Shown piece by piece: positions 684-25,076 of a stretch of 64,000 nt of DNA. The notes beneath the pieces are model-generated. The model ran no database searches and had not been told where the DNA came from. It saw nothing but the letters and a program-made list of their open reading frames with translations. Both the position numbers and the translations under genes were made by a program. Origin of the DNA: Hirudinaria manillensis (taxonomy: Eukaryota > Annelida > Clitellata > Hirudinida > Hirudinidae); contig CM067527.1 in the NCBI GenBank assembly GCA_034509925.1, positions 1-64,000 of the forward strand, read 5' to 3'. Numbering within the stretch: position 1 is the stretch's first letter; each line of letters begins with the position of its first letter.

Positions 684-792
684 TAGAGGGTTAGGGTTAG
701 GGTTAGGTTAGGGGGTTAGGGTTAGGGTTAGGTTAGGTTAGGGGGTTAGGGTTAGGGTTAGGTTAGGGGGTTAGGGATAGGGTTAGGGTTAG
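684..792 (+). repeat. Degenerate TTAGGG telomeric tract
   Basis: About 110 bases of TTAGGG with frequent variant units (GTTAGG, GGGGGTTAGG). The G-rich strand is +. It is directly followed by the antisense 3' end of a PLE-type element. The variants suggest an old interstitial tract. Confidence 0.9.
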
Positions 793-1138
793 AAACGAAA
801 ATAAATAAAACTGCACTTCCACTTTCTTTGTTAGTAGATTATCAAGCAAATTATGTACCGTATTCGTCAGAAACACACAATATAAACATAACTAAATTCA
901 CAATGCATCAAGAGACAATAAATCGGCAATTGATGATTATAATAAGACTAGTAAGATATCTGGCATTAAAGTTATTGGGATCCCAATAAAATTAGAAGCA
1001 GATTAGGATAAGAAATGTTAACTGCACCACCAAGAATTGCTACGCAAGCATTGAAGTAGAGCAGTAACAGAGAGTCGTTTGTTCCCAGAAAATTCTTCAG
1101 ACGTATTTACCGTGAAAAGAAATTTTGGAAAAAATGAC
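793..1138 (-). mobile_element. Short 3'-end fragment of PLE (antisense on +)
   Basis: The block starting with the conserved stretch that reads, in sense orientation, GGAAGTGCAGTTTTATT next to CCCTAA is the same as the 3' end of the full PLE at about 21,300-21,616. Only the terminal ~345 bases are present. A new TTAGGG tract starts immediately at 1139. It therefore sits as a 5'-truncated insertion between two telomeric tracts. Confidence 0.75.
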
Positions 1139-1163
1139 GGGGTTAGGGTTAGGGTTAGGGTTA
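1139..1163 (+). repeat. Short TTAGGG tract
   Basis: Roughly four perfect TTAGGG units, closing off the PLE 3' fragment on its left. The sequence from 1164 to 1377 is non-repetitive, with no gene that I can see. Confidence 0.9.
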
Positions 1164-1377
1164 AGATAGGAGAAGAAAATGTCGTTCCGCTTTCGCAGAA
1201 GGAAACATTTACTTTAATCGTGAGACCGCTTTTTACGACCTACGCTCCTTAGAGCGGATCCGTAATTAGTCGAATTTTACGGCTAATATTGTTCGAAGAA
1301 GGTGACCAAGGAGTGAGTGCTATATAATTTGTCGCAAATAGTTGATTAGTCGTTATCACGAGAATCGATATATTTTA

Positions 1378-1578
1378 GCGACATCTAACGAGTGTCCTTA
1401 TTTGGTGGCTTCTTCTTCTTCTTCTTATTATTATTATTATTATCGTTATTGTTATTATTATAATTATTATTAATGTTATTAATATTATTATTATTATTAT
1501 TATTATTGCTATTATTATTGTTATTACTATCATCATTACTATTATTATTGTTATTATTATTACTATTATTATTATTAC

Positions 1579-1629
<51 letters not shown>

Positions 1630-2015
1630 CATTATTATTATTATTATTGTTAAGTCTTGCAATCCTTTGAGCGACATCTAGCGGGTATTCTTATGCTATG
1701 GAAAAAGCTATTGTAATTCCAATTAGCAAGAATATGAGCCAGAATGCAAGATATGGCATTTGTATGTAGCCGTGTATAATATCGGATTATTTTAATCCCG
1801 ATTTATAACGACCTTGATGCAAATCTTGCAATCATTAAAGCGACATCTAGCGGGTATTCTTATGCGATGGAAAAAAGCTATTGTAATTCCAGTAGCAAGA
1901 ATATGAGCTAGAATGCAAGATATAACATTTGTATGTAGCCGTGTATAATGTCGGATTAGATTAATCCTGATTTATAACGACCCTGATGTAAATTTTGCAA
2001 TCATTAAAGCGACAT
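1378..2015. repeat. 169-bp tandem repeat interrupted by a TTA microsatellite
   Basis: The motif GCGACATCTAGCGGGTATTC occurs at 1671 and 1840, and the repeat restarts at 2009, giving a 169-bp period. A diverged start lies at 1378. The first copy is interrupted at about 1423-1650 by an imperfect (TTA)n microsatellite. The third copy is cut after seven bases, where a TTAGGG array begins. The leucine- and isoleucine-rich frames over the microsatellite are not genes. Confidence 0.85.
1423..1650. repeat. Imperfect (TTA)n microsatellite
   Basis: About 230 bases of TTA units with scattered G and C substitutions. It lies inside the first copy of the 169-bp repeat. Confidence 0.95.
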
Positions 2016-2173
2016 GGGTTAGGGTTAGGGTTAGGGTTAGGGTTAGGGTTAGGGTTAGGGTTAGGGTTAGGGTTAGGGTTAGGGTTAGGGTTAGGGTTAG
2101 GGTTAGGGTTAGGGTTAGGGTTAGGGTTAGGGTTAGGGTTAGGGTTAGGGTTAGGGTTAGGGTTAGGGTTAGG
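2016..2173 (+). repeat. TTAGGG array, about 26 units
   Basis: An almost perfect hexamer array beginning exactly where the third 169-bp repeat copy breaks off. It is followed at 2174 by a PLE 3' end in antisense orientation. The reading frames of repeated Leu-Gly in it are artefacts. Confidence 0.95.
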
Positions 2174-2529
2174 ATTAAGACAGAAAATATAAATAAAACT
2201 GCACTTCCACTTTCTTTGTTAGTAGATAATCTAGCAATTTATGTACCGTAATCGTCAAAAACACACAATATAAATCTAACTAAATTAACAATGCATCAAG
2301 AGACAATATATCGGCAATTGATGATATAAACTGGCATTAAAGTTATTGGGAACCAATAAAAATAAGAGCCAGATACGGACAAAATGTTTAACTACAACGC
2401 CAAGAATTGCTAAGCAAGCTTGGAATTAAAGTAGTACTCGAGAGTCGTATGTTCACAAAAAATTCTTAAAACGTATTTACCGTAAAAAGAATTTTAGGAG
2501 AAAATAACGAAACCGATTGCAAATTCACT

Positions 2530-3745
2530 TAATAAATATAAATACCCGTCGAAGCACGTTTTTTTTAAAACTATTAGATCAATAAGGGATGATAAATCAT
2601 CGCCCAAAACAACAAATTAACTTAGTAGTTTTACCACGAATTCATCAATGAACGATAAATTAGTGTTACAACAAGAGATGAAAACTCAGCCCTTGGAGAA
2701 ACCAAGGAAATAAGTTGTTTATTTGGAAAAAATTATTGGGAACCCAAAAAATTAAAACCAAAAATGTAATTAAATTAACTTAGTAGTTTTACCACGAATT
2801 CATCAATGAACGATAAATTAGTGTTACAACAAGAGATGAAAACTCAGCCCTTGGAGAAACCAAAGAAATAAGTTGTTTATTTGGTAAAAAATTTTTTTAT
2901 TGGGAACCCAAAAAAAATTAAAACCAAAAATGCAATTAAAATAAAATAAATTAAATTAAAGTAGTTTAAAAATCTCAAAACGTATTTAACGTTAAAGATT
3001 TTTGAGAATGACGATCAAAAAGGGATGATAAATCATCGCCCAAAACAACAAATTAACTTAGTAGTTTTACCACGAATTCACCAATGAACGATAAATTAGT
3101 GTTACAACAAGAGATGAAAACTCAGCCCTTGGAGAAACCAAAGAGATAAGTTGTTTATTTGGAAAAAAAATTATTGGGAACCCAAAAAATTAAAACCAAA
3201 AAATGTAATTAAATTAACTTAGTAGTTTTACCACGAATTCATCAATGAACGATAAATTAGTGTTACAACAAGAGATGAAAACTCAGCCCTTGGAGAAACC
3301 AGAGAAATAAGTTGTTTATTTGGTAAAAAAATTTTTTTATTGGGAACCCAAAAAAAATTAAAACCAAAAATGCAAATAAAATAAATTAAATTAAAGTAGT
3401 TTAAAAATCTCAAAACGTATTTAACGTTAAAGATTTTTGAGAATGACGATCAATAAGGGATGATAAATCATCGCCCAAAACAACAAATTAACTTAGTAGT
3501 TTTACCAAGAATTCATCAATGAACGATAAATTAGTGTTACAACAAGAGATGAAAACTCAGCCCTTGGAGAAACCAAAGAAATAAGTTGTTTATTTGGTAA
3601 AAAATGTTTTATTGGGAACCCAACAAATTAAAACCAAAAAATGTAAATAAAATAAATTAAATTAAATTAAAATAGTTTAAAACGTGCGTTTTTCAAAAAA
3701 AATCTCAAAACGTATTTAACGTTAAAGATTTTTGAGAATGACGAG
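2530..3745. repeat. ~434-bp higher-order tandem repeat in the 3' region of unit A
   Basis: A core that includes TTAGTAGTTTTACCACGAAT recurs five times from about 2620 to 3595 with alternating spacings of about 158 and 276 bases, so the true period is about 434 bases. The core is also present once in the 3' region of the other PLE copies. It is therefore an internal expansion of element sequence. Short open frames in it are not coding. Confidence 0.75.
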
Positions 3746-4193
3746 CGAGGTATATTAAAATGCTAAAAAATACCAGGAAATGCTCCGCATTACAAGTATC
3801 AAAGCTATACCGAAATATATAATATATTATATATTATATAAAAGTTCTACAAATTCTAAAGCGTATTTCACGATAAAAAAGAATTTAAGAACAAAAGTGA
3901 AAAAAGCAATTAAAAAATTATGCTAAGAAATACCATTAAATTGCAACGCAAAAAAATGGTATCGAAGCAAAAAAGAAGCAAGCACGTGTGTTTTGAACAA
4001 AACACTGATAACCACTAAGAATATCCTAGGATTATCAAGCGACAAAAATACGAATACTTCAACAGACAAAATACAAGGCAAAGTACCGTTAATACGATTA
4101 AACTCACTAGGCCCTCGGCAGTTCTGCCCTCTAAGGTGAGCGAATAAGCGAAAAACGAAAAGATCGAAAAGCGGAAATATTGTCCTTATATAG

Positions 4194-4203
4194 CCGGGAA
4201 AGG
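4194..4203 (-). promoter_or_regulatory. TATA box of unit A 3'-region promoter
   Basis: CTATATAAGG on the - strand, preceded ~20 bases upstream by ATTGG (inverted CCAAT). It is conserved at the same place in four further copies although surrounding sequence has diverged. Function is inferred from sequence only. Confidence 0.5.
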
Positions 4204-4400
4204 TCCAGTGTTGACCAATAGGAGACTCCTGAGCGGCGGTGGGAGCACTGCTTCCACTGTCCTTTGAAGTGTTCATGCTGGCTAGCTTCTCTCTCCTAGA
4301 GGGGAGGTGGTGTCCTAGGAACTAGTTAATTAGTTATGCAGGCGTGAGTCGTTACATCGAGTTCAGGCCAGTCATTGTGTAATGCATCATTGGCCCAGAA

Positions 4401-4910
4401 CTAGGCGGCAAGATGGCTACGTCCCTTCGGACGGAAGTAACTTCCTTTTTCGAACGCCAAGATGACGGAGAGGTTCCTGAAGAATTCATCCTCGGGGTGA
4501 AAATTGCTGATGCTATCTTCTGTTGCTGTCTCCTGTTGTTCCCAGTGGTTTTTACCCAAAGGAACTATAACGGGTAAGAATTTTAAAATACTACTTAGAC
4601 GATCGTCAGAAGCATTTGTAATTTCTATGAGAATACTTCTCAAAGTTAGGCGATTGTACAATGGCGAAATATGTTTATCGATCAGTTCATTAGAATTTTC
4701 TAAGCAATATTCATTCTTAGAAGGTGATCTAATGAATCTATTGATTTCTGAGGTAGCAAGATACCCAAACATATAATTTTGGGTGGCATGATTCAGCATT
4801 TTTTATAAGGAAAGAAATCTCTAATTGATCTCCTTCTTTATTAAAAATGTATTCGTATCAAGAATTATCAGGTTCACGGAAACCCGTTACATCCAAAGAT
4901 AATTATTGTC
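4401..4910 (-). pseudogene. PLE reverse transcriptase, C-terminal remnant
   Basis: On the - strand the region matches the last ~170 residues of the RT at 18.5-20.2 kb, covering the FLDVTVFR-like segment and the thumb. Shared patterns are a Tyr-Cys-Leu-Glu-Asn-Ser-Asn-Glu-Leu-Ile segment, the NASDD motif and the tail AFEKGS. The frame is open from 4799 to 4401; before 4799 it needs a frame change. Catalytic motifs A to C are absent. It is a dead 5'-truncated copy, with no endonuclease domain after it. Confidence 0.75.
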
Positions 4911-5039
4911 ACAATGTACTCCATATTTTTTGAAAATTATTTTTCAAAAATTTATTTTCCAAAAATTTATTTTTTTAAAAAACTAATTTTTAATTTTTTA
5001 AAAAAATTCTTTTGTTTTATCCTTGTAGATTCAACAAAG

Positions 5040-5245
5040 TTAGGGTTAGGGTTAGGGTTGGGTTAGGGTTAGGGTTAGGGTTAGGGTTAGGGTTAGGGTT
5101 AGGGTTAGGGTTAGGGTTAGGGTTAGGGTTAGGGTTAGGGTTAGGGTTAGGGTTAGGGTTAGGGTTAGGGTTAGGGTTAGGGTTAGGGTTAGGGTTAGGG
5201 TTAGGGTTAGGGTTAGGGTTAGGGTTAGGGTTAGGGTTAGGGTTA
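5040..5245 (+). repeat. TTAGGG array, about 34 units
   Basis: Almost perfect hexamers with one short unit near the left end. The right end passes directly into the antisense 3' end of unit B1 (GGTTAAAAACGAGAATTAAT). Confidence 0.95.
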
Positions 5246-5805
5246 AAAACGAGAATTAATAAAACTGCACTTCCACTTTCCTTGTCAATAGATTATCAAG
5301 CAAATTATGTACCGTATTCGTCAAAAACACAATATAAACATAACTAAATTCACAATGCATCAAGAGACCATGAGTCGGCAATTGATGAATGTAATAAGAC
5401 TAGTTAGATATCTGGCATTAAAGATATTGGGAACCCATTAAAGTTAAAGCAGATTAGGACAAAAAATGTTAACTGCACTACCAAGAATTGCAACGCAAGA
5501 ATTGAAATAATGCAGTAACAGAGAGTCATATGTTCCAAAAAAATTCTTCAGACGTATTTATCGTGAAAAGAAATTTTGGAAAAAATGACACATAGATTGC
5601 ATATTCACTTATTAAAAACTCGTCAAAGCATTTAAGACAGCAAGAGATGATAAATCATCACTTATAAATTAAAGCTATACAACTAACAAATTACCCTAGT
5701 AGTTTTACCACAAATTTGTCAAGGAGCGATAAATCAGTGTTAAAACAAGAGATGAAAACTCAGCTCTTAAAGAAACCAAAGAATTTAGTTGTATAATTGG
5801 TAATA

Positions 5806-8560
5806 AAATTATTGGAAACCCAAATAAAATTACAACCAGAATGCAATTAAAATAAGCGCTTTTTATTTTTAAAAAAAATCTATCAAAACGTATTAAACGT
5901 TGACGATTTCTGGTAATAAAATTATTGGAAACCCAAATAAAATTAAACCAGAATGTAATGAAATAAATAAAAATAAAAATAAAAATAAGCGCTTTTTATT
6001 TTTTAAAAAAATATATCAAAACGTATTAAACGTTGACGATTTTTAGTTGTATAATTGGTAATAAAATTATTGGAAACCCAAATAAAATTAAAACCAGAGT
6101 GCAATAAAATAAATTAAAATAAGCGTTTTTGTTTTTAAAAAATATATCAAAACGTATTAAACGTTGACGATTTTTAGTTGCAAAATTGGTAATAAAATTA
6201 TTGGAAACCCAAATAAAGTTAAAACCAGAATGCAATTAAAATAAGCGCTTTTTATTTTTAAAAAAATCTATCAAGACGTATTAAACGTTGACGATTCCTG
6301 GTAATAAAATTATTGGAAACCCAAATAAAATTAAAGCCAGAATGCAATGACAAAGTTGTGAATTACACCCAGAATGCAATTAAAATAAGCGCTTTTTATT
6401 TTTTAAAAAATCTATCAAAACGTATTAAACATTGACGATTTCTGGTAATAAAATTATTGGAAACCCAAATAAAATTAAAAACAGAATGCAATGAAATAAA
6501 TAAAAATAAAAAATAAAAATAAGCGCTTTTTATTTTAAAAAAATATATCAAAACGTATTAAACGTTGACGATTTTTAGTTGTATAATTGGTAATAAAATT
6601 ATTGGAAACCCAAATAAAATTAAAACCAGAATGCAATTAAAATAAGCGCTTTCTATTTTTAAAAAAATCTATCAAACGTATTAAACGTTGACGATTTCTG
6701 GTAATAAAATTATTGGAAACCCAAATAAAATTAAAACCAGAGTGCAATAAAATAAATTAAAATAAGCGTTTTTTGTTTTTAAAAAATATATCAAAACGTA
6801 TTAAACGTTGACGATTTTTAGTTGCAAAATTGGTAATAAAATTATTGGAAACCCAAATAAAATTAAAACCAGAATGCAATTAAAATAAGCGCTTTTTATT
6901 TTTAAAAAATCCATCAGAACGTATTAAACGTTGACGATTTCTGGTAATAAAATTATTTGAAACCCAAATAAAATTAAAACAAGAATGCAATGACAAAGTT
7001 GTGAATTTCAAACAGAATGCAATTAAAATAAGCGCTTTTTATTTTTTAAAAAATCTATCAAAACGTATTAAACATTGACGATTTCTGGTAATAAAATTAT
7101 TGGAAACCCAAATAAAATTAAAAACAGAATGCAATGAAATAAATAAAAATAAAAATTAAAATAAGCGTTTTTTGTTTTTAAAAAATATATCAAAACGTAT
7201 TAAACGTTGACGATTTTTAGTTGCAAAATTGGTAATAAAATTATTGGAAACCCAAATAAAATTAAAACCAGAATGCAATTAAAATAAGCGCTTTTTATTT
7301 TTAAAAAAATCTATCAGAACGTATTAAACGTTGACGATTTCTGGTAATAAAATTATTGGAAACCCAAATAAAATTAAAACCAGAATGCAATGACAAAGTT
7401 GTGAATTACAACCAGAATGCAATTAAAATAAGCGCTTTTTATTTTTTAAAAAATCTATCAAAACGTATTAAACATTGACGATTTCTGGTAATAAAATTAT
7501 TGGAAACCCAAATAAAATTAAAAACAGAATGCAATGAAATAAATAAAAATAAAAATTAAAATAAGCGTTTTTTGTTTTTAAAAAATATATCAAAACGTAT
7601 TAAACGTTGACGATTTTTAGTTGCAAAATTGGTAATAAAATTATTGGAAACCCAAATAAAATTAAAACCAGAATGCAATTAAAATAAGCGCTTTTTATTT
7701 TTAAAAAAATCTATCAGAACGTATTAAACGTTGACGATTTCTGGTAATAAAATTATTGGAAACCCAAATAAAATTAAAACCAGAATGCAATGACAAAGTT
7801 GTGAATTACAACCAGAATGCAATTAAAATAAGAGCTTTTTATTTTTTAAAAATCTATCAAAACGTATTAAACATTGACGATTTCTGGTAATAAAATTATT
7901 GGAAACCCAAATAAAATTAAAAACAGAATGCAATTAAAATAAGCGCTTTCTATTTTAAAAAAAATCTATCAAACGTATTAAACGTTGACGATTTCTGGTA
8001 ATAAAATTATTGGAAACCCAAGTAAAATTAAAACCAGAGTGTAATAAAATAAATTAAAATAAGCGCTTTTTGTTTTTTAAAAAAATATATATCAAAACGT
8101 ATTAAACGTTGACGATTTCTGGTAATAAAATTATTGGAAACCCAAATAAAATTAAAACTAGAATGCAATGAAATAAATTAAAATAAGCGCTTTTTATTTT
8201 TAAAAAAATATCAAAACGTATTAAACGTTGACGATTTTTAGTTGTATAATTGGTAATAAAATTATTGGAAACCCAAATAAAATTAAAACCAGAATGTAAA
8301 ATAAGCGCTTTTTATTTTTAAAAAATCTATCAAAACGTATTAAACGTTGACGATTTCTAGTTGTATAATTGGTAATAAAATTATTGGAAACCCAAATAAA
8401 ATTAAAACCAGAGTGCAATGAAATAAATTAAAATAAGCGCTTTTTAATTGGTAATAAAATTATTGGAAACCCAAATAAAATTAAAACCATAATGCAATAA
8501 ATTAAAATATGTGCTTCTTATTTAAAAAGATCCATCAAAACGTATTAAACGTTGACGATT
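5806..8560. repeat. ~111-bp minisatellite array with ~398-bp higher order (B1)
   Basis: Monomers of about 111 bases contain GTATTAAACGTTGACGATTT, ATTATTGGAAACCCAAATAA and AAATAAGCGCTTTTTATT. Variants with an extra AGTTGTATAATTGG or a GACAAAGTTGTGAATTACA insert recur together, so the marker AACATTGACG repeats every ~398 bases at about 7072, 7470 and 7868. A single diverged monomer exists in the 3' region of the full-length copy. Its many short frames are not genes. Confidence 0.9.
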
Positions 8561-8995
8561 TTTAAGAACGACGAGTGGGGTGTATTGGAATGCTAAAAAA
8601 TACCAGAAAATGCTACGCATTACTAGTATCCAGGCTACACCAAAATATAATCTCAGTGTTCAATGAAATTCTAAAGCGTATTAACGATAAAAGAATTTAA
8701 GAACAAAGTGAATAAAAGCAATTATAAGGTTATGCAGAGAGATACCATAAAATTGCAACGCATGAAATGGTATCGAAGCAATATAGAAGCAAGCAAGTGT
8801 TTTTCAAACAAAACACCGATAACCACTGAGAAAATCCCAGGATTATCAAGTGAACAAAATACGAATACTTCAACAGACAAAATACAAGGCAAAATACCGT
8901 TAATACGATTAAACTCACTAGGCCCTCGGCAGTTCTGCCCTCTAAGGTGAGCGAATAAGCGAAAAACGAGAAGATCGAAAAGCGGAAAATATTGT

Positions 8996-9005
8996 CCTTA
9001 TATAG
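8996..9005 (-). promoter_or_regulatory. TATA box, unit B1
   Basis: CTATATAAGG on the - strand with ATTGG about 20 bases upstream. About 190-250 bases upstream are AAGATGGC-type and CCAAGATGAC sequences resembling YY1 sites. Transcription from here would run toward the 3' end of the unit and its TTAGGG array. Confidence 0.5.
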
Positions 9006-9365
9006 CCGAGAAAGGTCCAGTGTTGACCAATAGGAGACTCCTGAGCGGCGGTGGGAGCACTGCTTCCACTGTCCTTTGAAGTGTTCATGCTGGCTAGCTT
9101 CTCTCTCCTAGAGGGGAGGTGGTGTCCTAGGAACTAGTTAATTAGTTATGCAGGCGTGAGTCATTACATCGAGTTCAGGCCAGCCATTGTGTAATGCATC
9201 ATTGGCCCAGAACTAGGCGGCAAGATGGCTACGTCCCTTAGGAAGGAGATTACTTCCTTTTTTGAACGCCAAGATGACGGAAAGGTTCCTAGAGAATATC
9301 ATCTCTAGTCCTTTCGATTGATTCAAAATTGCAGATAAATCTAATAACAAAGATGGTATTAGGCA

Positions 9366-9377
9366 GGGTTAGGGTTA
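9366..9377 (+). repeat. Two-unit TTAGGG stub between B1 and B2
   Basis: GGGTTAGGGTT separates the 5' leader of B1 from the 3' end of B2. The short tract implies the second insertion followed the first with almost no telomere extension, or that the tract shrank. Confidence 0.9.
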
Positions 9378-9929
9378 AAAACGAGAATTAATAAAACTGC
9401 ACTTCCACTTTCCTTGTCAATAGATTATCAAGCAAATTATGTACCGTATTCGTCAAAAACACAATATAAACATAACTAAATTCACAATGCATCAAGAGAC
9501 CATGAGTCGGCAATTGATGAATGTAATAAGACTAGTTAGATATCTGGCATTAAAGATATTGGGAACCCATTAAAGTTAAAGCAGATTAGGACAAAAAATG
9601 TTAACTGCACTACCAAGAATTGCAACGCAAGAATTGAAATAATGCAGTAACAGAGAGTCATATGTTCCAAAAAAAATTCTTCAGACGTATTTATCGTGAA
9701 AAGAAATTTTGGAAAAAATGACACATAGATTGCATATTCACTTATTAAAAACTCGTCAAAGCATTTAAGACAGCAAGAGATGATAAATCATCACTTATAA
9801 ATTAAAGCTATACAACTAACAAATTACCCTAGTAGTTTTACCACAAATTTGTCAAGGAGCGATAAATCAGTGTTAAAACAAGAGATGAAAACTCAGCTCT
9901 TAAAGAAACCAAAGAATTTAGTTGTATAA

Positions 9930-12545: not shown

Positions 12546-12982
12546 TTTTTAAGAACGACGAGTGGGGTGTATTGGAATGCTAAAAAATACCAGAAAATGC
12601 TACGCATTACTAGTATCCAGGCTACACCAAAATATAATCTCAGTGTTCAATGAAATTCTAAAGCGTATTAACGATAAAAGAATTTAAGAACAAAGTGAAT
12701 AAAAGCAATTATAAGGTTATGCAGAGAGATACCATAAAATTGCAACGCATGAAATGGTATCGAAGCAATATAGAAGCAAGCAAGTGTTTTTCAAACAAAA
12801 CACCGATAACCACTGAGAAAATCCCAGGATTATCAAGTGAACAAAATACGAATACTTCAACAGACAAAATACAAGGCAAAATACCGTTAATACGATTAAA
12901 CTCACTAGGCCCTCGGCAGTTCTGCCCTCTAAGGTGAGCGAATAAGCGAAAAACGAGAAGATCGAAAAGCGGAAAATATTGT

Positions 12983-12992
12983 CCTTATATAG
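12983..12992 (-). promoter_or_regulatory. TATA box, unit B2
   Basis: CTATATAAGG on the - strand in the same context as in B1. Confidence 0.5.
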
Positions 12993-13352
12993 CCGAGAAA
13001 GGTCCAGTGTTGACCAATAGGAGACTCCTGAGCGGCGGTGGGAGCACTGCTTCCACTGTCCTTTGAAGTGTTCATGCTGGCTAGCTTCTCTCTCCTAGAG
13101 GGGAGGTGGTGTCCTAGGAACTAGTTAATTAGTTATGCAGGCGTGAGTCATTACATCGAGTTCAGGCCAGCCATTGTGTAATGCATCATTGGCCCAGAAC
13201 TAGGCGGCAAGATGGCTACGTCCCTTAGGAAGGAGATTACTTCCTTTTTTGAACGCCAAGATGACGGAAAGGTTCCTAGAGAATATCATCTCTAGTCCTT
13301 TCGATTGATTCAAAATTGCAGATAAATCTAATAACAAAGATGGTATTAGGCA

Positions 13353-13365
13353 GGTTAGGGTTAAA
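13353..13365 (+). repeat. TTAGGG stub between B2 and B3
   Basis: GGTTAGGGTTA. The flanks are identical to those of the stub at 9366 apart from one missing G. Confidence 0.85.
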
Positions 13366-13904
13366 AACGAGAATTAATAAAACTGCACTTCCACTTTCCT
13401 TGTCAATAGATTATCAAGCAAATTATGTACCGTATTCGTCAAAAACACAATATAAACATAACTAAATTCACAATGCATCAAGAGACCATGAGTCGGCAAT
13501 TGATGAATGTAATAAGACTAGTTAGATATCTGGCATTAAAGATATTGGGAACCCATTAAAGTTAAAGCAGATTAGGACAAAAATGTTAACTGCACTACCA
13601 AGAATTGCAACGCAAGAATTGAAATAATGCAGTAACAGAGAGTCATATGTTCCAAAAAAAATTCTTCAGACGTATTTATCGTGAAAAGAAATTTTGGAAA
13701 AATGACACATAGATTGCATATTCACTTATTAAAAACTGTCAAAGCATTTAAGACAGCAAGAGATGATAAATCATCACTTATAAATTAAAGCTATACAACT
13801 AACAAATTACCCTAGTAGTTTTTACCACAAATTTGTCAAGGAGCGATAAATCAGTGTTAAAACAAGAGATGAAAACTCAGCTCTTAAAGAAACCAAAGAA
13901 TTTA

Positions 13905-16045: not shown

Positions 16046-16489
16046 TTGACGATTTTTAAGAACGACGAGTGGGGTGTATTGGAATGCTAAAAAATACCAG
16101 AAAATGCTACGCATTACTAGTATCCAGGCTACACCAAAATATAATCTCAGTGTTCAATGAAATTCTAAAGCGTATTAACGATAAAAGAATTTAAGAACAA
16201 AGTGAATAAAAGCAATTATAAGGTTATGCAGAGAAATACCATAAAATTGCAACGCATGAAATGGTATCGAAGCAATATAGAAGCAAGCAAGTGTGTTTCA
16301 AACAAAACACCGATAACCCCTAAGAAAATCCCAGGATTATCAAGTGAACAAAATACGAATACTTCAACAGACAAAATACAAGGCAAAATACCGTTAATAC
16401 GATTAAACTCACTAGGCCCTCGGCAGTTCTGCCCTCTAAGGTGAGCGAATAAGCGAAAAACGAGAAGATCGAAAAGCGGAAAATATTGT

Positions 16490-16499
16490 CCTTATATAG
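16490..16499 (-). promoter_or_regulatory. TATA box, unit B3
   Basis: CTATATAAGG on the - strand, 35 bases from the inversion junction. Confidence 0.45.
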
Positions 16500-16534
16500 C
16501 CGCGAAAGGTCCAGTGTTGACCAATAGGAGACTC

Positions 16535-17972
16535 CAACGTTTAATACGTTTTGATATATATTTTTTTAAAATAAAAAGCGCTTATTTTTATTTTTTATTT
16601 TTATTTATTTCATTGCATTCTGTTTTTAATTTTATTTGGGTTTCCAATAATTTTATTACCAGAAATCGTCAATGTTTAATACGTTTTGATAGATTTTTTA
16701 AAAAATAAAAAGCGCTTATTTTAATTGCATTCTGGTTGTAATTCACAACTTTGTCATTGCATTCTGGCTTTAATTTTATTTGGGTTTCCAATAATTTTAT
16801 TACCAGGAATCGTCAACGTTTAATACGTCTTGATAGATTTTTTAAAAAATAAAAAGCGCTTATTTTAATTGCATTCTGGTTTTAACTTTATTTGGGTTTC
16901 CAATAATTTTATTACCAATTTTGCAACTAAAAATCGTCAACGTTTAATACGTTTTGATATATTTTTTAAAAACAAAAAACGCTTATTTTAATTTATTTTA
17001 TTGCACTCTGGTTTTAATTTTATTTGGGTTTCCAATAATTTTATTACCAGAAATCGTCAACGTTTAATACGTTCTGATAGATTTTTTTAAAAATAAAAAG
17101 CGCTTATTTTAATTGCATTCTGGTTTTAATTTTATTTGGGTTTCCAATAATTTTATTACCAATTATACAACTAAAAATCGTCAACGTTTAATACGTTTTG
17201 ATATATTTTTTTAAAAAATAAAAGCGCTTATTTTTATTTTTATTTTTATTTATTTCATTACATTCTGGTTTAATTTTATTTGGGTTTCCAATAATTTTAT
17301 TACCAGAAATCGTCAACGTTTAATACGTTTTGATAGATTTTTTTAAAAATAAAAAGCGCTTATTTTAATTGCATTCTGGTTGTAATTTTATTTGGGTTTC
17401 CAATAATTTTATTACCAATTATACAACTAAATTCTTTGGTTTCTTTAAGAGCTGAGTTTTCATCTCTTGTTTTAACACTGATTTATCGCTCCTTGACAAA
17501 TTTGTGGTAAAACTACTAGGGTAATTTGTTAGTTGTATAGCTTTAATTTATAAGTGATGATTTATCATCTCTTGCTGTCTTAATGTGCTTTGACGAGTTT
17601 TTAATAAGTGAATATGCAATCTATGTGTCATTTTTTCCAAAATTTCTTTTCACGATAAATACGTCTGAAGAATTTTTTTTGGAACATATGACTCTCTGTT
17701 ACTGCATTATTTCAATTCTTGCGTTGCAATTCTTGGTAGTGCAGTTAACATTTTTTGTCCTAATCTGCTTTAACTTTAATGGGTTCCCAATATCTTTAAT
17801 GCCAGATATCTAACTAGTCTTATTACATTCATCAATTGCCGACTCATGGTCTCTTGATGCATTGTGAATTTAGTTATGTTTATATTGTGTTTTTGACGAA
17901 TACGGTACATAATTTGCTTGATAATCTATTGACAAGGAAAGTGGAAGTGCAGTTTTATTAATTCTCGTTTTT
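16535..17972 (+). mobile_element. Inverted PLE-derived unit B4 (3' part only)
   Basis: Sense strand is +. It holds ~870 bases of minisatellite (16,535-17,410) and then the 3' region ending at the CCCTAA array at 17,973. It is close to a perfect inverted copy of the left ends of B1 to B3 (for example 5246-6690). Promoter and leader are missing because the unit begins inside a monomer at the junction. Confidence 0.75.
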
Positions 17973-18358
17973 AACCCTAACCCTAACCCTAACCCTAACC
18001 CTAACCCTAACCCTAACCCTAACCCTAACCCTAACCCTAACCCTAACCCTAACCCTAACCCTAACCCTAACCCTAACCCTAACCTAACCCTAACCCTAAC
18101 CCTAACCCTAACCCTAACCCTAACCCTAACCCTAACCCTAACCCTAACCCTAACCCTAACCCTAACCCTAACCCTAACCCTAACCCTAACCCTAACCCTA
18201 ACCCTAACCCTAACCCTAACCCTAACCCTAACCCTAACCCTAACCCTAACCCTAACCCTAACCCTAACCCTAACCCTAACCCTAACCCTAACCCTAACCC
18301 CTAACCCTAACCCTAACCCTAACCCTAACCCTAACCCTAACCCTAACCCTAACCCTAA
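17973..18358 (-). repeat. CCCTAA array, about 64 units (longest in window)
   Basis: About 386 bases of CCCTAA on the + strand, with two slipped units (near 18,083 and 18,300). The G-rich strand is -, opposite to the arrays at 684-13,365. It separates the 3' end of B4 from the 5' side of the full PLE. Confidence 0.95.
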
Positions 18359-18458
18359 TCTAAAATTCACTTTTAATCAACTCTTTTCACAGGAATCCTG
18401 GTGGAAGGAAACAAGAGGTCTCGTAAAAGATGAACCTCGCTCCCGACGGCCTCGGTGA

Positions 18459-20206
18459 CTGGACCCCCCAGATAATAGGATATTCAATCTTTCTAGCTTT
18501 TTGTTTAACAATAAAGAGATTGATATCCTACATAAAGGCATTTATTTTGTTCCATGTTATAGTAAAGTGAATTCCCAAAGAATCCACGAAGCTATTAAAC
18601 GTTTTGTCAGAACACTTAAATTAAAAGCGTTCTTTAAAAGTGATTTACCAAAAAGCGATGGCTTTAGAATACCGAGTGAGTGGGAACCACCTCTCGAATC
18701 TCTTGATTACAATACGAGGAGAATTCTCGATGATGTAACAAATAAGTTCTACCAAACAATGAATAAATTCATCTTAGGAGATGCTACCGATTCTAGTCGG
18801 ACGTCTTTTAGAACTTTGAATGAAATCACGCATGGTTTTTCTGATTACGTAAGTATCAATAAAATTGCTAATAACAAGTCAATTACTATTCGTAAGGCCG
18901 ATAAAGGATCGTCCTTTGTAATTCTTGATAAACAGAAATACCTCGACGAGGCAATTCGGCAATTAAATGATACGAAATTCTACGTTAAGTTGACGAAGTC
19001 AATGCAACCGGAAAACGCTCAATTATTGGAACGAAGATTAAAAGTTGCCTTGGAAACACACCAAATTAGTTTGAAATTGTTTAAATTTCTTACTGGCCCA
19101 AGACCATATAATAGTAGAAAATTCTACTTTTTACCTAAGGTTCATAAACCGAGGAGTAAATGGCCTAATCCTAATTGCCCACCCGGACGACCGATAGTTT
19201 CCGATGTTAACACGGAATCATCACGCATCGCTCAATTTATTGACTACCATGTCAATAAATACGCACAACACCTTCCCTCTTACGTGAGGGACAGTTTCGA
19301 TTTTATTCAAAAGATCAAAGGGATTCAATTGGATGATGACGGGTGACGTTAGTTCGTTATACACCAATATGAATTTGAATAGAACGGTTATTATTAAACG
19401 TTGGTTTAACAAGCATCCGGTCAGTAACCGCCCTGATTCTTTGATCATCGATCTGCTCGAGTTCACCTTGAAAAGAAATGATTTTGAATTTAATGGTGAC
19501 TACTTCCTCCAAGTTTGTGGCTGTGCCATGGGTAAAAAATACTCACCGGGTTTAGCCAACCTCTACTTAAGAGTGTTAGATAATTTAGTTCTAAATAAAA
19601 CCCAAAATCTACCTTAGATATCTGGATGATATTTTCCTGATCCTGAAGGGCTCATTTGATGATGCTAAAATTCTGGAATCTGCAATGAACAATGTCATAA
19701 CGGACATTAAAATTGAGTTACAATGTGATATAAACGCAATTAGTTTTCTGGATGTAACGGTATTCCGCGAACCAGATAACTCTATTGGCACTAAAGTGTT
19801 TTTTAAGGAGACTAACAATAGACTTCTTTTAAATCCTGACTCATGCCACCAAAAACATACGTTTGGTGGTATTGTCAAATCACAATTCATTCGATATAAG
19901 AGATTATCTTCTAGGAATGAATACTTCCTTAAAACTTCTAATGAACTTATCCACAAACAAATTTCGCTGGGTTACAATCGCCAAACTATTAGAAAAATTC
20001 TCAGAGAAGTAGCGAATGCTTCGGATGATCATCCAAGTAAAAATAAAGATAAGAAAATCTTACCCTTTGTAATTCCTTTTGGTGAAACCTCGAGGAAGGC
20101 AGTAAACAGCGTTAGAAGAGTTCTCTCTGAAGATGATTTCTTTAGAAACTTCACGATCGTCTCGGCCTTCGAAAAAGGAAGTAATCTCCTTTCGAAATTC
20201 TTCTAA
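18459..20206 (+). pseudogene. PLE reverse transcriptase with two frameshifts
   Basis: Read through three frames: 18,459-19,345, about 19,333-19,600 and 19,601-20,206. Visible PLE signatures in order: RKADKGSSFVILDK (about 18,890), FYFLPKVHKP (19,125), GRPIVSDVNTESS (19,185), motif A GDVSSLYTN (19,342), motif B CAMGKKYSPGLANLYL (19,525), motif C YLDDIF (19,619) and FLDVTVFR (19,745), then a thumb. The catalytic aspartates are all present. The first shift falls just before motif A, the second in an A-run before motif C. A TGA at 18,456 closes the frame upstream and the first Met is at 18,501, so the true start is uncertain. No GIY-YIG domain is found in any frame after the stop. Sequencing indels cannot be excluded. 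Confidence 0.85.
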
Positions 20207-20522
20207 ATCGACCGGACTAGAGACGATATTCTCTAGGAACCTCACCGTCATCTTGGCGTTCAAAAAAGGAAGTAACTTCCTTCCAAAGGGATGTCGCCAT
20301 CTTGCCGCCTAGTTCTGGGCCAAGGATGTATTACACAATCGCTGGCCTGAGCTTGATGTAACGACTCACGCCTGCATAGCTAATTAACTAGTTCTAAAGG
20401 ATACCACCTCCCCTCGAAAGAGAGAGAAGCTAGCCAGCATGAACACTTCAAAGGACAGGGGAAGCATTGCTCCCACCGCCGCTCAGGAGTCTCCTATTGG
20501 TCAACACTGGACCTTTTCTCGG

Positions 20523-20532
20523 CTATATAAGG
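20523..20532 (+). promoter_or_regulatory. TATA box in 3' region of the full PLE
   Basis: CTATATAAGG with ATTGG at 20,496-20,500. Upstream at about 20,245 and 20,290 lie CGTCATCTTGG and CGCCATCTTG, which resemble YY1 sites. It sits about 320 bases after the RT stop and 1.1 kb before the element's 3' end. A promoter here would read outward through the 3' region into whatever lies next. Confidence 0.5.
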
Positions 20533-21616
20533 ACAATATTTTCCGCTTGTCGATCTTGTCGTTTTTCGCATTATTCGCTCACCTTAGAAGGCAGAACTGC
20601 CGAGGGCCTAGTGAGTTTAATCGTATTAACGGTATTTTGCCTTGTATTTTGTCTGTTGAAGTATTCGTATTTTGTTCACTTGATAACCCTGGGATTTTCT
20701 TAGTGGTTATCTGTGTTTTGTTTGAAACACACTTGCCTGCTTCTATATTGCTTCGATACCATTTCATGCGTTGCAATTTTATGGTATTTTTTTGCATAAT
20801 CTTTTAATTGCTTTCACTCACTTAGTTCTTAAATTCTTTTACCGTTAAATACGCTTTAGAATTTCGTAGAACACATATTATAATTTGGTGTAGCTTGGAT
20901 ACTAGTAAAGCGTAGCATTTTTTAGTATTTTTTAGCGTTCCTATGTACCTCGCTCGTCGTTCTTATAAATCTTTTACGTCAAAAACGTTTTGAGATTTTT
21001 TTAAAAAAGCGCACGTTTTAATTTATTTTAATTTAATTTTATTGCAATTTTGGTTTTAATTTTATTTGGGTTCCCAATAATTTCCAAATATACAACTAAA
21101 TTCTTTGGTTTCTTCAAGAGCTGAGTTTTCATCTCTTGTTGTATCACTGATTTATCGTTCCTTGACGAATTCGTGGTAGAACTACTAAGGTAATTTGTTG
21201 GTTGTGCAGCTTTAATACCAATTGTGCGTGGCATTTTGCTGTTATTTGGGACCCCAATAATTTTACTGCCAAACACAGAATTTATAGGTGATGATTTATC
21301 ATCCCTTGTTGACTTAAATAAGTTTTAACGTGCTTCGACGAGTTTATAATAAGTGAATTTGCAATCTGTGCGATTATGGTGTTGCAGTTAACATTTCTTG
21401 TCCTAATCTGATTCTAATTTTATTGGGATCCCAATAACTTTAATGCCGGATATCTAACTAGTTTTATTATAATCATCAATTGCCGATTTATTGTCTCTTG
21501 ATGTATTATGAATTTAGTTATGTTTATATTGTGTGTTTTTGACGAATACGGTACATAATTTGCTAGATAATCTACTGACAAAGAAAGTGGAAGTGCAGTT
21601 TTATTTATTTTCGCTC

Positions 21617-21640
21617 TTAACCCTAACCCTAACCCTTAAT
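21617..21640 (-). repeat. CCCTAA tract after the full PLE
   Basis: About three and a half CCCTAA units directly after the PLE 3' end, at the tail-to-tail junction with the ORF units that follow. Confidence 0.9.
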
Positions 21641-21665
21641 GGCGAAAAATAAGGTAAGACCTACC

Positions 21666-22582
21666 TTATTGGTTTTCTTCAGTTGGGAGCGAGTCCTCAC
21701 TTCGACTCGCAACTGGAAAGGCAACTTGAGGTGAGGGGTTCTGGATAAACTCCAGTTTCTCCTCCATTCGATCATCATTATCTTGCTCCGGTGTGTGTGG
21801 GGCCGAGGCGGTTTGTATAGGAGAACTGAGAGGAACAATTGGAGTAGGTTCTGTATCGATTCGGGCTGAATAGCCCTCGCCGGTAGCCGGAACATTCGAC
21901 TGTCGGAACCTTCTCTTTTTAGTGGGTGGAGGCGATGTCTCCATTGTCCCAGGTGAGTCTTTCACCAGGGATTTCCAGGTTGTGATCCTCGGAGGGATTT
22001 CGTAGTACGTTGTAATACTACATGGGGAATCCTCCATCACGAAGTTGAAAAGTTGATTTTTCAACTCCGTGAACCTTGTATTATCCCACCTTTCGTGTTT
22101 CTTTCCGTTCATCCTGAACGAAAAGGCATCAGTTAAGATGTCTTCATCCACGTTGATCGAGGGCAACAGTCCCCGAAGTTCCTTGACAACCCTGTTATGC
22201 TTTTTTAAGGCATTTTCTAGGTGGAGATTATGAATCATCCCTGTCATCACTTCAACCATCTGTTTTTGGGTCTTGACGAATTCTTCGTCAAAGCCAGGTG
22301 GTCGCGCCCGAATGCCGCGAGTAGTGCTTCCGATGTTTTTGAAGAATCGAGCGAGTATCCCGCATCGATATAAAATTCCACCTGGATTAGGCGGAAGATT
22401 AGATCCGCCGCCTTCCGGTGTTTCTCCCATATTTCAGGAGGGTGGCTCATCGACGGAGCACTCCTCTCCGTAGCCTTCTTTGTCACAAGAGGTTTGTTTC
22501 TAGGTTTGAATACTCTAGGGGCAGACTTAGTAGATGTCTTATTGTTCTTCAGAGTACCATTTGGTCCACGCTTTCTGTCCAT
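21666..22582 (-). pseudogene. Unrecognised protein of telomeric unit, copy 1 (longest, one frameshift)
   Basis: The reconstructed span is 917 bases, about 305 codons when one missing base near 22,300 is allowed for. The product starts with MDRKRGPNGTLKNNK, has an N-terminal basic region, a middle helical region, a conserved FSFRMNGKKxERW segment, a PPPTKKRRFRQ stretch that looks like a nuclear localisation signal, and an acidic, Pro-rich tail ending TEENQ. No enzyme motif, zinc knuckle or RT signature is visible. ATG follows a CCCTAACC stub by ~50 bases with the leader CTAATACCATC. The frameshift (GGGCGCGACC against GGGCCGCGACC in copies 2 and 3) breaks it. It may be an accessory (ORF1-like) protein of a telomeric retroelement, but this is inference. 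Confidence 0.6.
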
Positions 22583-22736
22583 CTTTATTCAAATTAAAAT
22601 ACTGGAACGATGGTATTAGATAAGGTTAGGGTTAAGAGAAATTAAAAAGCATTTTTCCTTCCCTTTCTGGGAACTATTGCTTAGGTGCTTTTAATTGAGA
22701 TGTATTGCTAGTTTATTTATCAGTTCTTTGGAACGA

Positions 22737-23552
22737 TTACTTTATTGCAATAATTGAAAATGTGCAGTCGGCCAAATATATGGCTACAAAAAAAATTTGT
22801 ACAGGAGTGCTGAGAGGAACAATTGGAGTTGGTTCTGCCTCGATTCGGGTTGGATAACCCTCGCCGGTAGTCGGTACGTTCGACTGACGGAACCTTCTCC
22901 TTTTAGTGGGTGGAGGCGATGTCTCCGGTGTCCCAGGTGAGTCTCTCACCAGGGTTTTCCAAGCCGTGATTCTCGGAGGGATTTCGTAGTACGTGGTTAT
23001 ACTGCATGGGGAATCCTCCATCACGAAGTTGAAAAGTTGATTCTTCAACTCCGTGAACTTTGCTTGGTCCCACCTTTCGTTCTTCTTTCCGTTCATCCTG
23101 AACGAAAATGCATCAATTAAGATGCTCTCATCCACGTCGATCGAGGGCAGCAGTCCTAGAAGTTCCCTGACAGCCCGTTTATGCTTTCTTAAAGCATTTT
23201 TCAGGTTGAGATTTTTAATCATCTCTGTCATTACTTCTATCATCTGTTTCTGGGTATTGACGAAAGGTGGTCGCGGCCCGAATGCTGCGAGTAGTCCTTC
23301 AGATGTCTTCGAAGAATCGAGCGAGTATCCCGCATCGATATAAAATTCCACCTGGATTAGGCGGAAGATTAGATCCGCCGCCTTCCGGTGTTTCTCCCAT
23401 ATTTCAGGAGGGTGGCTCATCGACGGAGCACTCCTCTCCGTAGCCTTCTTTGTCACAAGAGGTTTGTTTCTAGGTTTGAATACTCTAGGGGCAGACTTAG
23501 TAGATGTCTTATTGTTCTTCAGAGTACCATTTGGTCCACGCTTTCTGTCCAT
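22737..23552 (-). CDS. Unrecognised protein of telomeric unit, copy 2 (3'-replaced)
   Basis: 271 codons. It is close to copy 1 over the first ~250 residues but lacks five residues (GFDEE) after AFGPRPP, and its tail is replaced: after PLSTPVQI the frame runs into sequence identical to the 3' flank of the receptor gene at 25,051-25,120, ending FSIIAIK. The NLS-like TKRRRFRQ is kept. The frame is intact. The TTTATT at about 22,741-22,746, which reads AATAAA on the - strand, comes from the captured flank and could serve as its poly(A) signal. Confidence 0.55.
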   Translation of the reverse strand: MDRKRGPNGTLKNNKTSTKSAPRVFKPRNKPLVTKKATERSAPSMSHPPEIWEKHRKAADLIFRLIQVEFYIDAGYSLDSSKTSEGLLAAFGPRPPFVNTQKQMIEVMTEMIKNLNLKNALRKHKRAVRELLGLLPSIDVDESILIDAFSFRMNGKKNERWDQAKFTELKNQLFNFVMEDSPCSITTYYEIPPRITAWKTLVRDSPGTPETSPPPTKRRRFRQSNVPTTGEGYPTRIEAEPTPIVPLSTPVQIFFVAIYLADCTFSIIAIK

Positions 23553-23706
23553 CTTTATTCAAATTAAAATACTGGAACGATGGTATTAGATAAGGTTAGG
23601 GTTAAGAGAAATTAAAAAGCATTTTTCCTTCCCTTTCTGGGAACTATTGCTTAGGTGCTTTTAATTGAGATGTATTGCTAGTTTATTTATCAGTTCTTTG
23701 GAACGA

Positions 23707-24522
23707 TTACTTTATTGCAATAATTGAAAATGTGCAGTCGGCCAAATATATGGCTACAAAAAAAATTTGTACAGGAGTGCTGAGAGGAACAATTGGAGTT
23801 GGTTCTGCCTCGATTCGGGTTGGATAACCCTCGCCGGTAGTCGGTACGTTCGACTGACGGAACCTTCTCCTTTTAGTGGGTGGAGGCGATGTCTCCGGTG
23901 TCCCAGGTGAGTCTCTCACCAGGGTTTTCCAAGCCGTGATTCTCGGAGGGATTTCGTAGTACGTGGTTATACTGCATGGGGAATCCTCCATCACGAAGTT
24001 GAAAAGTTGATTCTTCAACTCCGTGAACTTTGCTTGGTCCCACCTTTCGTTCTTCTTTCCGTTCATCCTGAACGAAAATGCATCAATTAAGATGCTCTCA
24101 TCCACGTCGATCGAGGGCAGCAGTCCTAGAAGTTCCCTGACAGCCCGTTTATGCTTTCTTAAAGCATTTTTCAGGTTGAGATTTTTAATCATCTCTGTCA
24201 TTACTTCTATCATCTGTTTCTGGGTATTGACGAAAGGTGGTCGCGGCCCGAATGCTGCGAGTAGTCCTTCAGATGTCTTCGAAGAATCGAGCGAGTATCC
24301 CGCATCGATATAAAATTCCACCTGGATTAGGCGGAAGATTAGATCCGCCGCCTTCCGGTGTTTCTCCCATATTTCAGGAGGGTGGCTCATCGACGGAGCA
24401 CTCCTCTCCGTAGCCTTCTTTGTCACAAGAGGTTTGTTTCTAGGTTTGAATACTCTAGGGGCAGACTTAGTAGATGTCTTATTGTTCTTCAGAGTACCAT
24501 TTGGTCCACGCTTTCTGTCCAT
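23707..24522 (-). CDS. Unrecognised protein of telomeric unit, copy 3 (identical to copy 2)
   Basis: Identical in protein to copy 2, displaced by exactly 970 bases, including the captured tail. Either a very recent tandem duplication or an assembly duplication. No known family recognised; see copy 1 for the visible features. Confidence 0.55.
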   Translation of the reverse strand: MDRKRGPNGTLKNNKTSTKSAPRVFKPRNKPLVTKKATERSAPSMSHPPEIWEKHRKAADLIFRLIQVEFYIDAGYSLDSSKTSEGLLAAFGPRPPFVNTQKQMIEVMTEMIKNLNLKNALRKHKRAVRELLGLLPSIDVDESILIDAFSFRMNGKKNERWDQAKFTELKNQLFNFVMEDSPCSITTYYEIPPRITAWKTLVRDSPGTPETSPPPTKRRRFRQSNVPTTGEGYPTRIEAEPTPIVPLSTPVQIFFVAIYLADCTFSIIAIK

Positions 24523-24660
24523 CTTTATTCAAATTAAAATACTGGAACGATGGTATTAGATAAGGTTAGGGTTAAGAGAAATTAAAAAGCATTTTTCCTT
24601 CCCTTTCTGGGAACTATTGCTTAGGTGCTTTTAATTGAGATGTATTGCTAGTTTATTTAT

Positions 24661-24748
24661 CAGTTCTTTGGAACGATTACTTTATTGCAATAATTGAAAA
24701 TGTGCAGTCGGCCAAATATATGGCTACAAAACAAATTGGGTATCATTA
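24661..24748 (-). repeat. 88-bp copy of the receptor gene's 3' flank
   Basis: Bases 24,661-24,748 are identical to 25,051-25,138, the downstream region of the nicotinic-type receptor gene. Shorter copies (~68 bases) lie at 22,721 and 23,691. The segment includes AATAAA on the - strand. From 24,749 to about 24,880 the sequence is AT-rich, with no gene. Confidence 0.9.
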
Positions 24749-24890
24749 TTTGTGAAAAATAATTGTTTTCTCCCTAAAGATTGTTTCGAAGGGAAATTAT
24801 TTCCGTCTATTAGTTTTTTCCTTATTGAATCCTGATATTTAAATTAAGACTACTGGAACGAAAGTGGAAGTACAAGCTTTTTAATTTCTC

Positions 24891-24997
24891 TTAACCCTAA
24901 CCCTAACCTAACCCTAACCCCTAACCCTCTTTATTTTTTTCTCTAACCCTAACCCTAACCCATTTATTTCTCCTTTCTGAACCCTAACCCTAACCCT
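24891..24997 (-). repeat. Three CCCTAA tracts split by tiny tails
   Basis: CCCTAA tracts at 24,892-24,928, 24,944-24,960 and 24,981-24,997 are separated by 15-20 base T-rich tails (for example TTTATTTCTC). These resemble the last bases of the element end TTTTTAATTTCTCTT at 24,880. This looks like repeated abortive insertions at a telomere. 24,998 onward is the 3' flank of the receptor gene. Confidence 0.8.
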
Positions 24998-25070
24998 CTA
25001 GTATTATGTGTTTCATTTGTATGTTATAAACAAATAAAATGCATTGGAATCAGTTCTTTGGAACGATTAC

Positions 25071-25076
25071 TTTATT
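25071..25076 (-). terminator. Likely poly(A) signal of the receptor gene
   Basis: AATAAA on the - strand, 161 bases after the stop codon at 25,237. This hexamer is in the segment copied into the 970-bp units. Confidence 0.5.

Follow-up and report, generated by a model that had tools for sequence, protein, structure and literature searches.

Athena elements, Penelope-like elements (PLEs) of bdelloid rotifers, lack an endonuclease and are associated with telomeres, according to the available parts of two descriptions (PMC3846280, PMC5537684), and the first of these also mentions an endonuclease-deficient PLE in the kuruma shrimp (PMC3846280, in part). Here we describe a family of such elements in the leech Hirudinaria manillensis. 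The DNA we analyzed (64,000 nucleotides, "the window" throughout) is the start of the 14.27-Mb chromosome C2, and its first 25 kb hold PLE copies with 3' ends joined to TTAGGG repeats. The assembly totals 148.4 Mb in 23 contigs; the published HiFi/Hi-C assembly of the species is described, in the part of the paper available, as having 13 chromosomes of 14.76 to 8.30 Mb, 22 scaffolds, an N50 of 11.46 Mb and a mitochondrion of 15,581 bp (PMC10671345). We conclude that an endonuclease-less Penelope-like retroelement family very probably lives in leech telomeres, by the cycle proposed below.

The leech element resembles Athena in its reverse transcriptase (RT) without a GIY-YIG nuclease, in the telomeric repeats at its 3' end, in 5' truncations that are followed by telomeric repeats and in its concentration at chromosome ends (PMC3846280, PMC5537684, both in part). 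Set against these partial descriptions, it differs in its annelid host, its TTAGGG repeat, the single frame that joins open reading frame 1 (ORF1) to the RT across a UGA, and its ORF-less arrays. Terminons, the giant Athena-containing units, likewise have Athena-type RT units at telomeres and telomeric repeats within the unit (PMC5537684, in part), whereas the longest leech element measures about 7 kb and has two ORFs, and GIY-YIG appears in the genome only as an SLX1-like exon. Canonical Penelope shares with it an RT and a partial 3'-end repeat before the ORFs that resembles a pseudo-long terminal repeat (pLTR); unlike canonical Penelope, the leech element yielded no C-terminal GIY-YIG, and that SLX1-like exon is again all that the genome offers. 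Among telomeric retroelements of other classes, HeT-A and TART of Drosophila lie with the 5' end toward the terminus, and the TRAS/SART long interspersed nuclear elements (LINEs) have an RT of a class different from that of PLEs. The leech element resembles the former pair in attaching to chromosome ends (PMC5537684, in part) and differs from it in that the leech encodes telomerase and has TTAGGG caps. TRAS/SART and other telomeric LINEs are, like it, retroelements among telomeric repeats (PMC10088271, in part), but Pfam found no nuclease in the leech element, its distal register is variable and it has no fixed two-sided site.

What is new here is the presence of ORF1 and RT in one frame across a conserved UGA, together with selection on the part of the RT that precedes its first methionine. 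Our literature search found neither telomeric PLEs of annelids nor readthrough in PLEs, which does not establish their absence from print. The available parts of the H. manillensis assembly paper (PMC10671345) and of a three-leech paper mention neither telomeres nor Penelope.

Position and register of the element 3' ends

An initial annotation of the window had read positions 684 to 25003 as a chromosome end built by an endonuclease-less PLE, and had called for a genome-wide check of whether all 3' ends adjoin TTAGGG. The 3'-terminal 20-mer of the element (AAAACTGCACTTCCACTTTC) has 108 exact copies in the genome; positions were listed for 100 of them, the other 8 coming later in the order of contigs than C18 position 99440. 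Seventy-five of the listed copies are on the 13 chromosomes, and 73 of these fall within 60 kb of an end, in zones that make up 1.06% of chromosome length. The remaining two, 70.8 kb (C13) and 210 kb (C11) from an end, sit on telomeric tracts, and all 75 are within 211 kb. Copies with 3' ends in non-telomeric DNA at many loci, the pattern that the annotation had regarded as contrary to its proposal, were thus not seen. The exact 20-mer is present at 16 of the 26 chromosome ends, and 63 of the 75 chromosomal copies have the predicted orientation, with the 5' end toward the terminus.

Adjacency to telomeric repeats held for every copy we read (54/54, half of the 108, in 273 kb of DNA, five C22 copies included): 29 abut tracts no shorter than 12 nt, 24 are tandem joints and one, at the C1 tip, abuts a short stretch. 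Three forward copies, one at C13 right and the others on small contigs, lay outside this individual reading. A search with the core CTTCC-N-CTTT-Y gave 53 occurrences, all with GGGTTA no more than 32 nt upstream, in 238 kb that were picked around matches and are hence no random sample. Across the whole genome, a gapped-pattern search gave as many matches as there are reverse copies (65) and matched 34 of the 35 forward copies listed through C11; it missed C11:210285 because the tract there is 37 nt away. Within the window itself, the (TTAGGG)3 18-mer has 110 matches, versus 0 in each of 100 shuffles.

The register of these junctions differs between the two sides. On the proximal side the repeat runs ...GGGTTA and is followed by A or G at the element start; a start after GGGTTA is common to families A to D. 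The few exceptions are C2:2195 and C3:13644725, which carry GGGTTAGGATTAAGACA; C11:210285, which has an extra stretch; and C1:14747331 and C13:70836, which leave the repeat at GGG (TTAGGG, then AAAGAG or ATAGAG). On the distal side, where 5'-truncated copies give way to telomeric repeats, starts vary among 67 tracts, some of them degenerate or non-PLE repeats (AGGG 19, GGG 17, TTAGGG 17, G 7, GG 5, TAGGG 2). A fixed proximal and a variable distal register fit in-register priming, followed by untargeted recapping at a random 5' stop.

We also read eight internal fragments (on C2, C4 twice, C6, C7, C8, C9 and C10) with 0.9 to 6 kb around each, a set that leaves out matches at C13, C7 3.29 Mb and C6 11.26 Mb. 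All eight are diverged, truncated or rearranged, and none matched the element over its last 150 bases. The C6 fragment adjoins degenerate TTAGGG; a scripted scan found telomeric repeats beside none of the other seven. Some internal DNA is itself repetitive: ORF1 and RT pieces form mid-chromosome repeats at C9:5171429-5179488 (units of about 1412 bp), C4:10472267-10473876 (357 bp) and C8:about 5086100-5088900, the C8 and C9 sites being near the chromosome middle. The C8, C4 and C9 fragments look like small satellites made of ORF1 and RT pieces.

The reverse transcriptase and its joint with ORF1

In the longest copy (C7, L045; 7,052 bp on the minus strand), a partial repeat of the 3' end is followed by TAACCCTAACCCT, a short 5' untranslated region (UTR), ORF1 (492 codons), a TGA, the RT frame (589 codons) and a 3' region of 3.2 kb. 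A conserved box, GAAAGTGGAAG, lies in the element's 3' region. The pLTR-like partial repeat before the ORFs is evident from element positions 8-594 and the stretch to 7052, which match the same copies. A decayed RT fragment in the 3' region of the C7 copy (L045 1656-2127; two longer pieces 44 to 48% identical to its own RT) is probably the remnant of another PLE. A hammerhead ribozyme in the pLTR is common in PLEs and not defining; in the C7 copy, an Rfam search up to E=1 found no hammerhead and one chance match.

Ten copies, that on C7 included, keep the 589-codon RT frame open and are near identical across ends. The intact RT matches Pfam RVT_1 above the curated cut-off (E=1.1e-7) and has the motifs KADKG, GRPIVSD, GDVSSLYTN, AMGKKYSPGLANLY and YLRYLDD, which we take to be PLE-type. 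These motifs and the behavior of the element, rather than a tree or a PLE profile, suggest that it belongs to the PLEs. Other searches added little: the Protein Data Bank (PDB) gave nothing for the window RT piece and only group II RTs at E of about 0.05 for the whole RT, the NCBIfam group II RT model scored far below its cut-off, Pfam gave no match for the broken window RT pieces, and an AlphaFold2 model of the RT (mean pLDDT, the predicted local distance difference test, 35.5) was uninformative and was not used. The RT that had been annotated in the window is not intact: its frame is shifted and the element that holds it is 5'-truncated. Open RT frames lie at other ends.

The initial annotation had also stated that this RT lacks a GIY-YIG domain, and had named such a domain in intact copies as evidence against its proposal. 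Intact copies encode ORF1 and a 589-aa RT, and Pfam found no GIY-YIG in either protein of the one intact copy scanned, whose open RT frame is shared by nine further copies; this supports the statement. Genome-wide, the domain matched once, at C1:14669915, in an exon without an adjacent RT whose translation we take to be SLX1-like, in a Pfam search by exon that could overlook diverged domains. An endonuclease-bearing PLE elsewhere in the genome was considered and rejected, the sole GIY-YIG place in that search being the SLX1-like one.

ORF1 and the RT share one frame with a TGA between them. A protein search across the joint gave 33 matches; 26 of them span it, and each of the 26 has at least one TGA. 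Ten of the 11 joints we read have the context CGG-TGA-CTG-GA, and the second joint of L064 has CGG-TGA-CTA-GA. These joints come from A, the window copy, C8:5.087 Mb, C4:10.47-10.48 Mb and C9:5.17 Mb, and amount to four groups because the window and C8 copies are one subfamily; those from C4 and C9 include joints that are each other's tandem copies.

The first methionine of the RT frame is residue 100. We compared ratios of nonsynonymous to synonymous substitution rates (dN/dS) on its two sides. For RT residues up to 98 versus those after the first methionine, we obtained 0.171 versus 0.174 (A and the window copy), 0.169 versus 0.116 (A and the C8 copy) and 0.153 versus 0.161 (C8 and window copies), and residues 1-98 show an excess of third-position changes. 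The RT residues upstream of the first methionine are under purifying selection. The simplest reading is that the UGA is read through, beside which stands non-AUG initiation. We consider it unlikely that the RT is translated from a start of its own, either Met100 or a non-AUG codon, without readthrough: a methionine is available at residue 100, but the upstream residues are constrained much like the rest, which counts against Met100 and not against a non-AUG start, and the frame and context of the UGA are kept in all four groups.

Chromosome ends, arrays and the layout of the window

The outermost 800 bp are N at five of the 26 ends and readable at 21, of which eight match A or B, three match C or D, and seven have telomeric repeats without elements A to D. 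C4 left and C11 left are almost pure TTAGGG (123 and 115 CCCTAA units), and C2 left, where the repeats are likewise without these elements, is the inverted window start. At C4 left, D-type DNA, a 75-bp tract and B units give way to a TTAGGG cap about 1.24 kb long, in which some units are variants. The RNA-binding domain of TERT has one match in the genome (E=1.1e-27), on C10 within an open frame of 1042 aa. Since TERT is encoded and two of the 21 readable ends are almost pure TTAGGG, maintenance of ends by the element is not shown; the annotation's suggestion that the family "maintains or lengthens this end" is not supported, much of the bulk also consisting of near-identical tandem arrays whose units look amplified in place and not inserted singly. 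The element is an addition to telomeres whose sequence is ordinary, and replacement of telomerase is not shown.

At several ends, units abut without long tracts, and ORF-less derivatives form arrays, several of which have end-specific unit lengths. Units of the C3, C4 and C22 arrays are 99.4 to 99.9% identical and of near-constant length (3381-3382 bp four times, 3462-3469 bp three times and 3201-3203 bp four times, respectively), whereas units of different ends are 98.0 to 99.6% identical with several indels. The 20-mer recurs at 3340-3341 bp three times on C11 right and at about 3868 bp in most steps on C18, a 106-kb unplaced contig (C18:1-106000) with PLE-derived units from about 12.6 kb. 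The rule is imperfect: C3:24001-30407 and C22 share one class (99.5 to 99.9%), the innermost unit on C4 (3370 bp) is 99.0 to 99.4% identical, and the window's two full B units are 4132 and 3986 bp, 99.5% identical with 21 indels. No ORF1 or RT match was found in the window's B units, which retain the beginning of the 5'UTR and the 3' end. The arrays were probably amplified locally, by recombination or by rolling-circle copying.

All seven window junctions quoted in the initial annotation are present, within two bases of their quoted positions. Along the G-rich strand, telomeric repeats pass into an antisense 3' end at 791/792, 2173/2174, 5245/5246, 9377/9378 and 13363/13364 (the last had been placed at 13365/13366), with reverse-strand counterparts at 17972/17971 and 21618/21617. 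The final repeat of the tract at 2173 is imperfect (GGGTTAGGATTAAGACAG). The places at 9377 and 13363 were rejected as telomere tracts: tandem copies meet there, and the roughly two telomeric repeats present lie within a recurring sequence that is part of the element (AGGCAGGGTTAGGGTTA recurring, AGGCAGGTTAGGGTTA at 13363). The description of 684-25003 as a chromosome end is right in that the DNA is end-like and too simple in that two stretches meet head-to-head at 16535/16536, the terminus lying to the right of 684-16535 and to the left of 16536-25003, so that the first 16.5 kb of the window are inverted relative to the remainder. This join may be an assembly error or an in vivo fusion. A second head-to-head join, at C3:31710-31799, where a few bases separate two short, opposed telomere tracts, may be a real fusion or a chimera, and the C1 tip is also inverted.

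Table 1. Features of the window, with positions counted from its first nucleotide
Positions	Strand	Feature
684..791	+	Degenerate TTAGGG tract, terminus to right
792..1139	-	PLE 3'-end fragment, sense on - strand, shortened, then telomeric repeats
1140..1163	+	Short TTAGGG tract
1164..2015	-	Family D fragment; end AAGATAGGAGAA...TTCCGCTTTC begins after GGGTTA
2016..2173	+	TTAGGG tract
2174..5038	-	A-type 3' region; 4434-4916 is a decayed RT fragment
5039..5245	+	TTAGGG tract
5246..9365	-	B unit 1: 5'UTR start and 3' region, no ORF1/RT match
9366..9377	+	Tandem joint, two telomeric repeats
9378..13352	-	B unit 2
13353..13363	+	Tandem joint, about two telomeric repeats
13364..16535	-	B unit 3, interrupted by head-to-head join
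16535..16536		Head-to-head join of two opposed end-like stretches, without telomere tract, without N
16536..17971	+	B 3' end, sense on + strand
17972..18358	-	387-bp telomere tract, CCCTAA on + strand
18360..21617	+	Autonomous-type PLE, 5'-truncated: ORF1 tail, UGA, RT, 3' region
18456..18458	+	In-frame TGA between ORF1 and RT, context CGG-TGA-CTG-GA
18459..20206	+	PLE-type RT (by motifs), frameshifted copy, YLDD from 19619
21618..21639	-	Short telomere tract at PLE 3' end
21669..24522	-	Three family C ORF1-like frames: 21669-22433, 22740-23552, 23710-24522
24740..24891	+	Family C 3' end on telomere tract
24892..25003	-	Innermost telomeric tracts, host genes beyond

The units of family C, each about 970 bp long, are arranged in tandem, telomeric repeats occur in them at 22621-22634, 23591-23604 and 24561-24574, and the ORF1-like frames of the family (21.7-24.5 kb) are 37% identical to ORF1 of A. 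The end of family D (TTAAGATAGGAGAA...ATGTCG) lies on telomere tracts at C2, C7, C8 and C12. Just inside the innermost tract, a 90-bp stretch at 25049-25138 is repeated at 24659-24748 (100%), and 79 bp of it recur at 22719-22797 and 23689-23767 (98.7%); the local flank and the family C units thus have DNA in common. Farther in are host genes, a protein kinase at 53165-54034 and, beside the end, a weak match below the cut-off to a neurotransmitter-gated channel at 25240-26016. At the other side of the window, positions 1-683 gave no second match in the assembly, at any other chromosome end or elsewhere, and we rejected the idea that they also occur at another end. Elsewhere in the assembly, a full cox1 match at C9:3026446-3027786 scores as high as that of the mitochondrial contig and may be a nuclear mitochondrial insert or an assembly error.

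A proposed cycle and its alternatives

The cycle we propose would begin with transcription of the element from the terminus inward, giving an RNA that ends in the conserved 3' region, with its box, and then in C-rich telomeric sequence. This tail would pair in register with the TTAGGG overhang, whose 3'-OH would prime reverse transcription, and the complementary DNA, often 5'-shortened, would receive a new TTAGGG cap from telomerase. ORF1-RT would be produced from one frame by readthrough of the conserved UGA. ORF-less derivatives with an identical 3' end would be carried along, and at several ends one unit would be amplified into an array. A fuller version is possible but tentative: a mobile-telomerase-like element whose CCCUAA RNA tail comes from transcription of the inner tract, so that each insertion rebuilds the primer-binding site, with UGA readthrough and with ends set by telomerase, the element and array amplification together.

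Several observations weigh against the proposed cycle. PLE DNA is not strictly terminal, with some mid-chromosome fragments 80 to 90% identical to the element, the exact 20-mer is missing from 10 of the 26 ends, and three of the 21 readable ends have neither element nor telomeric repeats. Twelve of the 75 chromosomal copies are in the opposite orientation (five on C2, four on C3, one each on C10, at the C1 tip and at C11:210285), and only those on C2 and some on C3 trace to head-to-head joins. Because 3' ends within arrays copy one another, the adjacency counts are not of independent events; a binomial P that presupposes independence of the copies was not used, since tandem arrays break that assumption. 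A preferred overhang end left by telomerase could also give a fixed proximal register. RNAalifold found no covarying pairs among 47 on ten 3' ends. The last 26 to 28 ORF1 codons before the UGA have dN/dS of 0.32 and 0.49, and between the C8 and window copies they have 8 replacement and 0 silent changes, too few to weigh, although they lend no support.

Given the near-identity and near-constant length of units within arrays, compared with the differences between ends, recombination might come first: unequal exchange, break-induced replication or rolling-circle copying between ends would spread the arrays, perhaps most of the bulk, as in recombination-maintained telomeres, with reverse transcription rare or extinct. 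The near-identity of the ten open RT copies across ends also agrees with this, yet we regard it as quite unlikely. Insertion events are required by the single elements that sit on their own tracts with differing 5' truncation points and distal registers, by the common start of families A to D after GGGTTA and by the purifying selection on the RT, and the array-length rule has the exceptions given above. Recombination accounts for the arrays and not for the whole.

Site-specific insertion into internal telomeric repeats in the manner of TRAS/SART, with a nuclease supplied in trans that cuts TTA^GGG, would explain why many copies are flanked by telomeric repeats on both sides and why 17 of the 67 tracts start with GGG, as such a cut would leave. 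Distal starts nevertheless occur in all six registers, and neither the Pfam search of the element nor the sole, SLX1-like, GIY-YIG match in the genome offers such a nuclease, which makes this very unlikely. Most improbable of all is an assembly artefact in which subtelomeric repeats were collapsed or chimerically joined. The head-to-head joins in the window and on C3, the inverted C1 tip and the round-number endings of several scaffold lengths would fit it, but 16 of 26 chromosome ends have these 3' ends, for the most part oriented as expected, the joined stretches are free of N, and ends such as C4 left are clean. An artefact may account for the inversions only.

Endonuclease-less telomeric PLEs bear on the relation of telomerase to retroelements, and our literature search met with few animal examples, namely those of bdelloid rotifers and the endonuclease-deficient PLE of the kuruma shrimp (PMC3846280). 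Leeches offer a new setting in which to study the sharing of chromosome ends between such elements and telomerase. Direct tests are possible in this animal, which has TTAGGG telomeres, a gene for TERT and element copies whose frames are open, and for which a chromosome assembly from HiFi reads exists.

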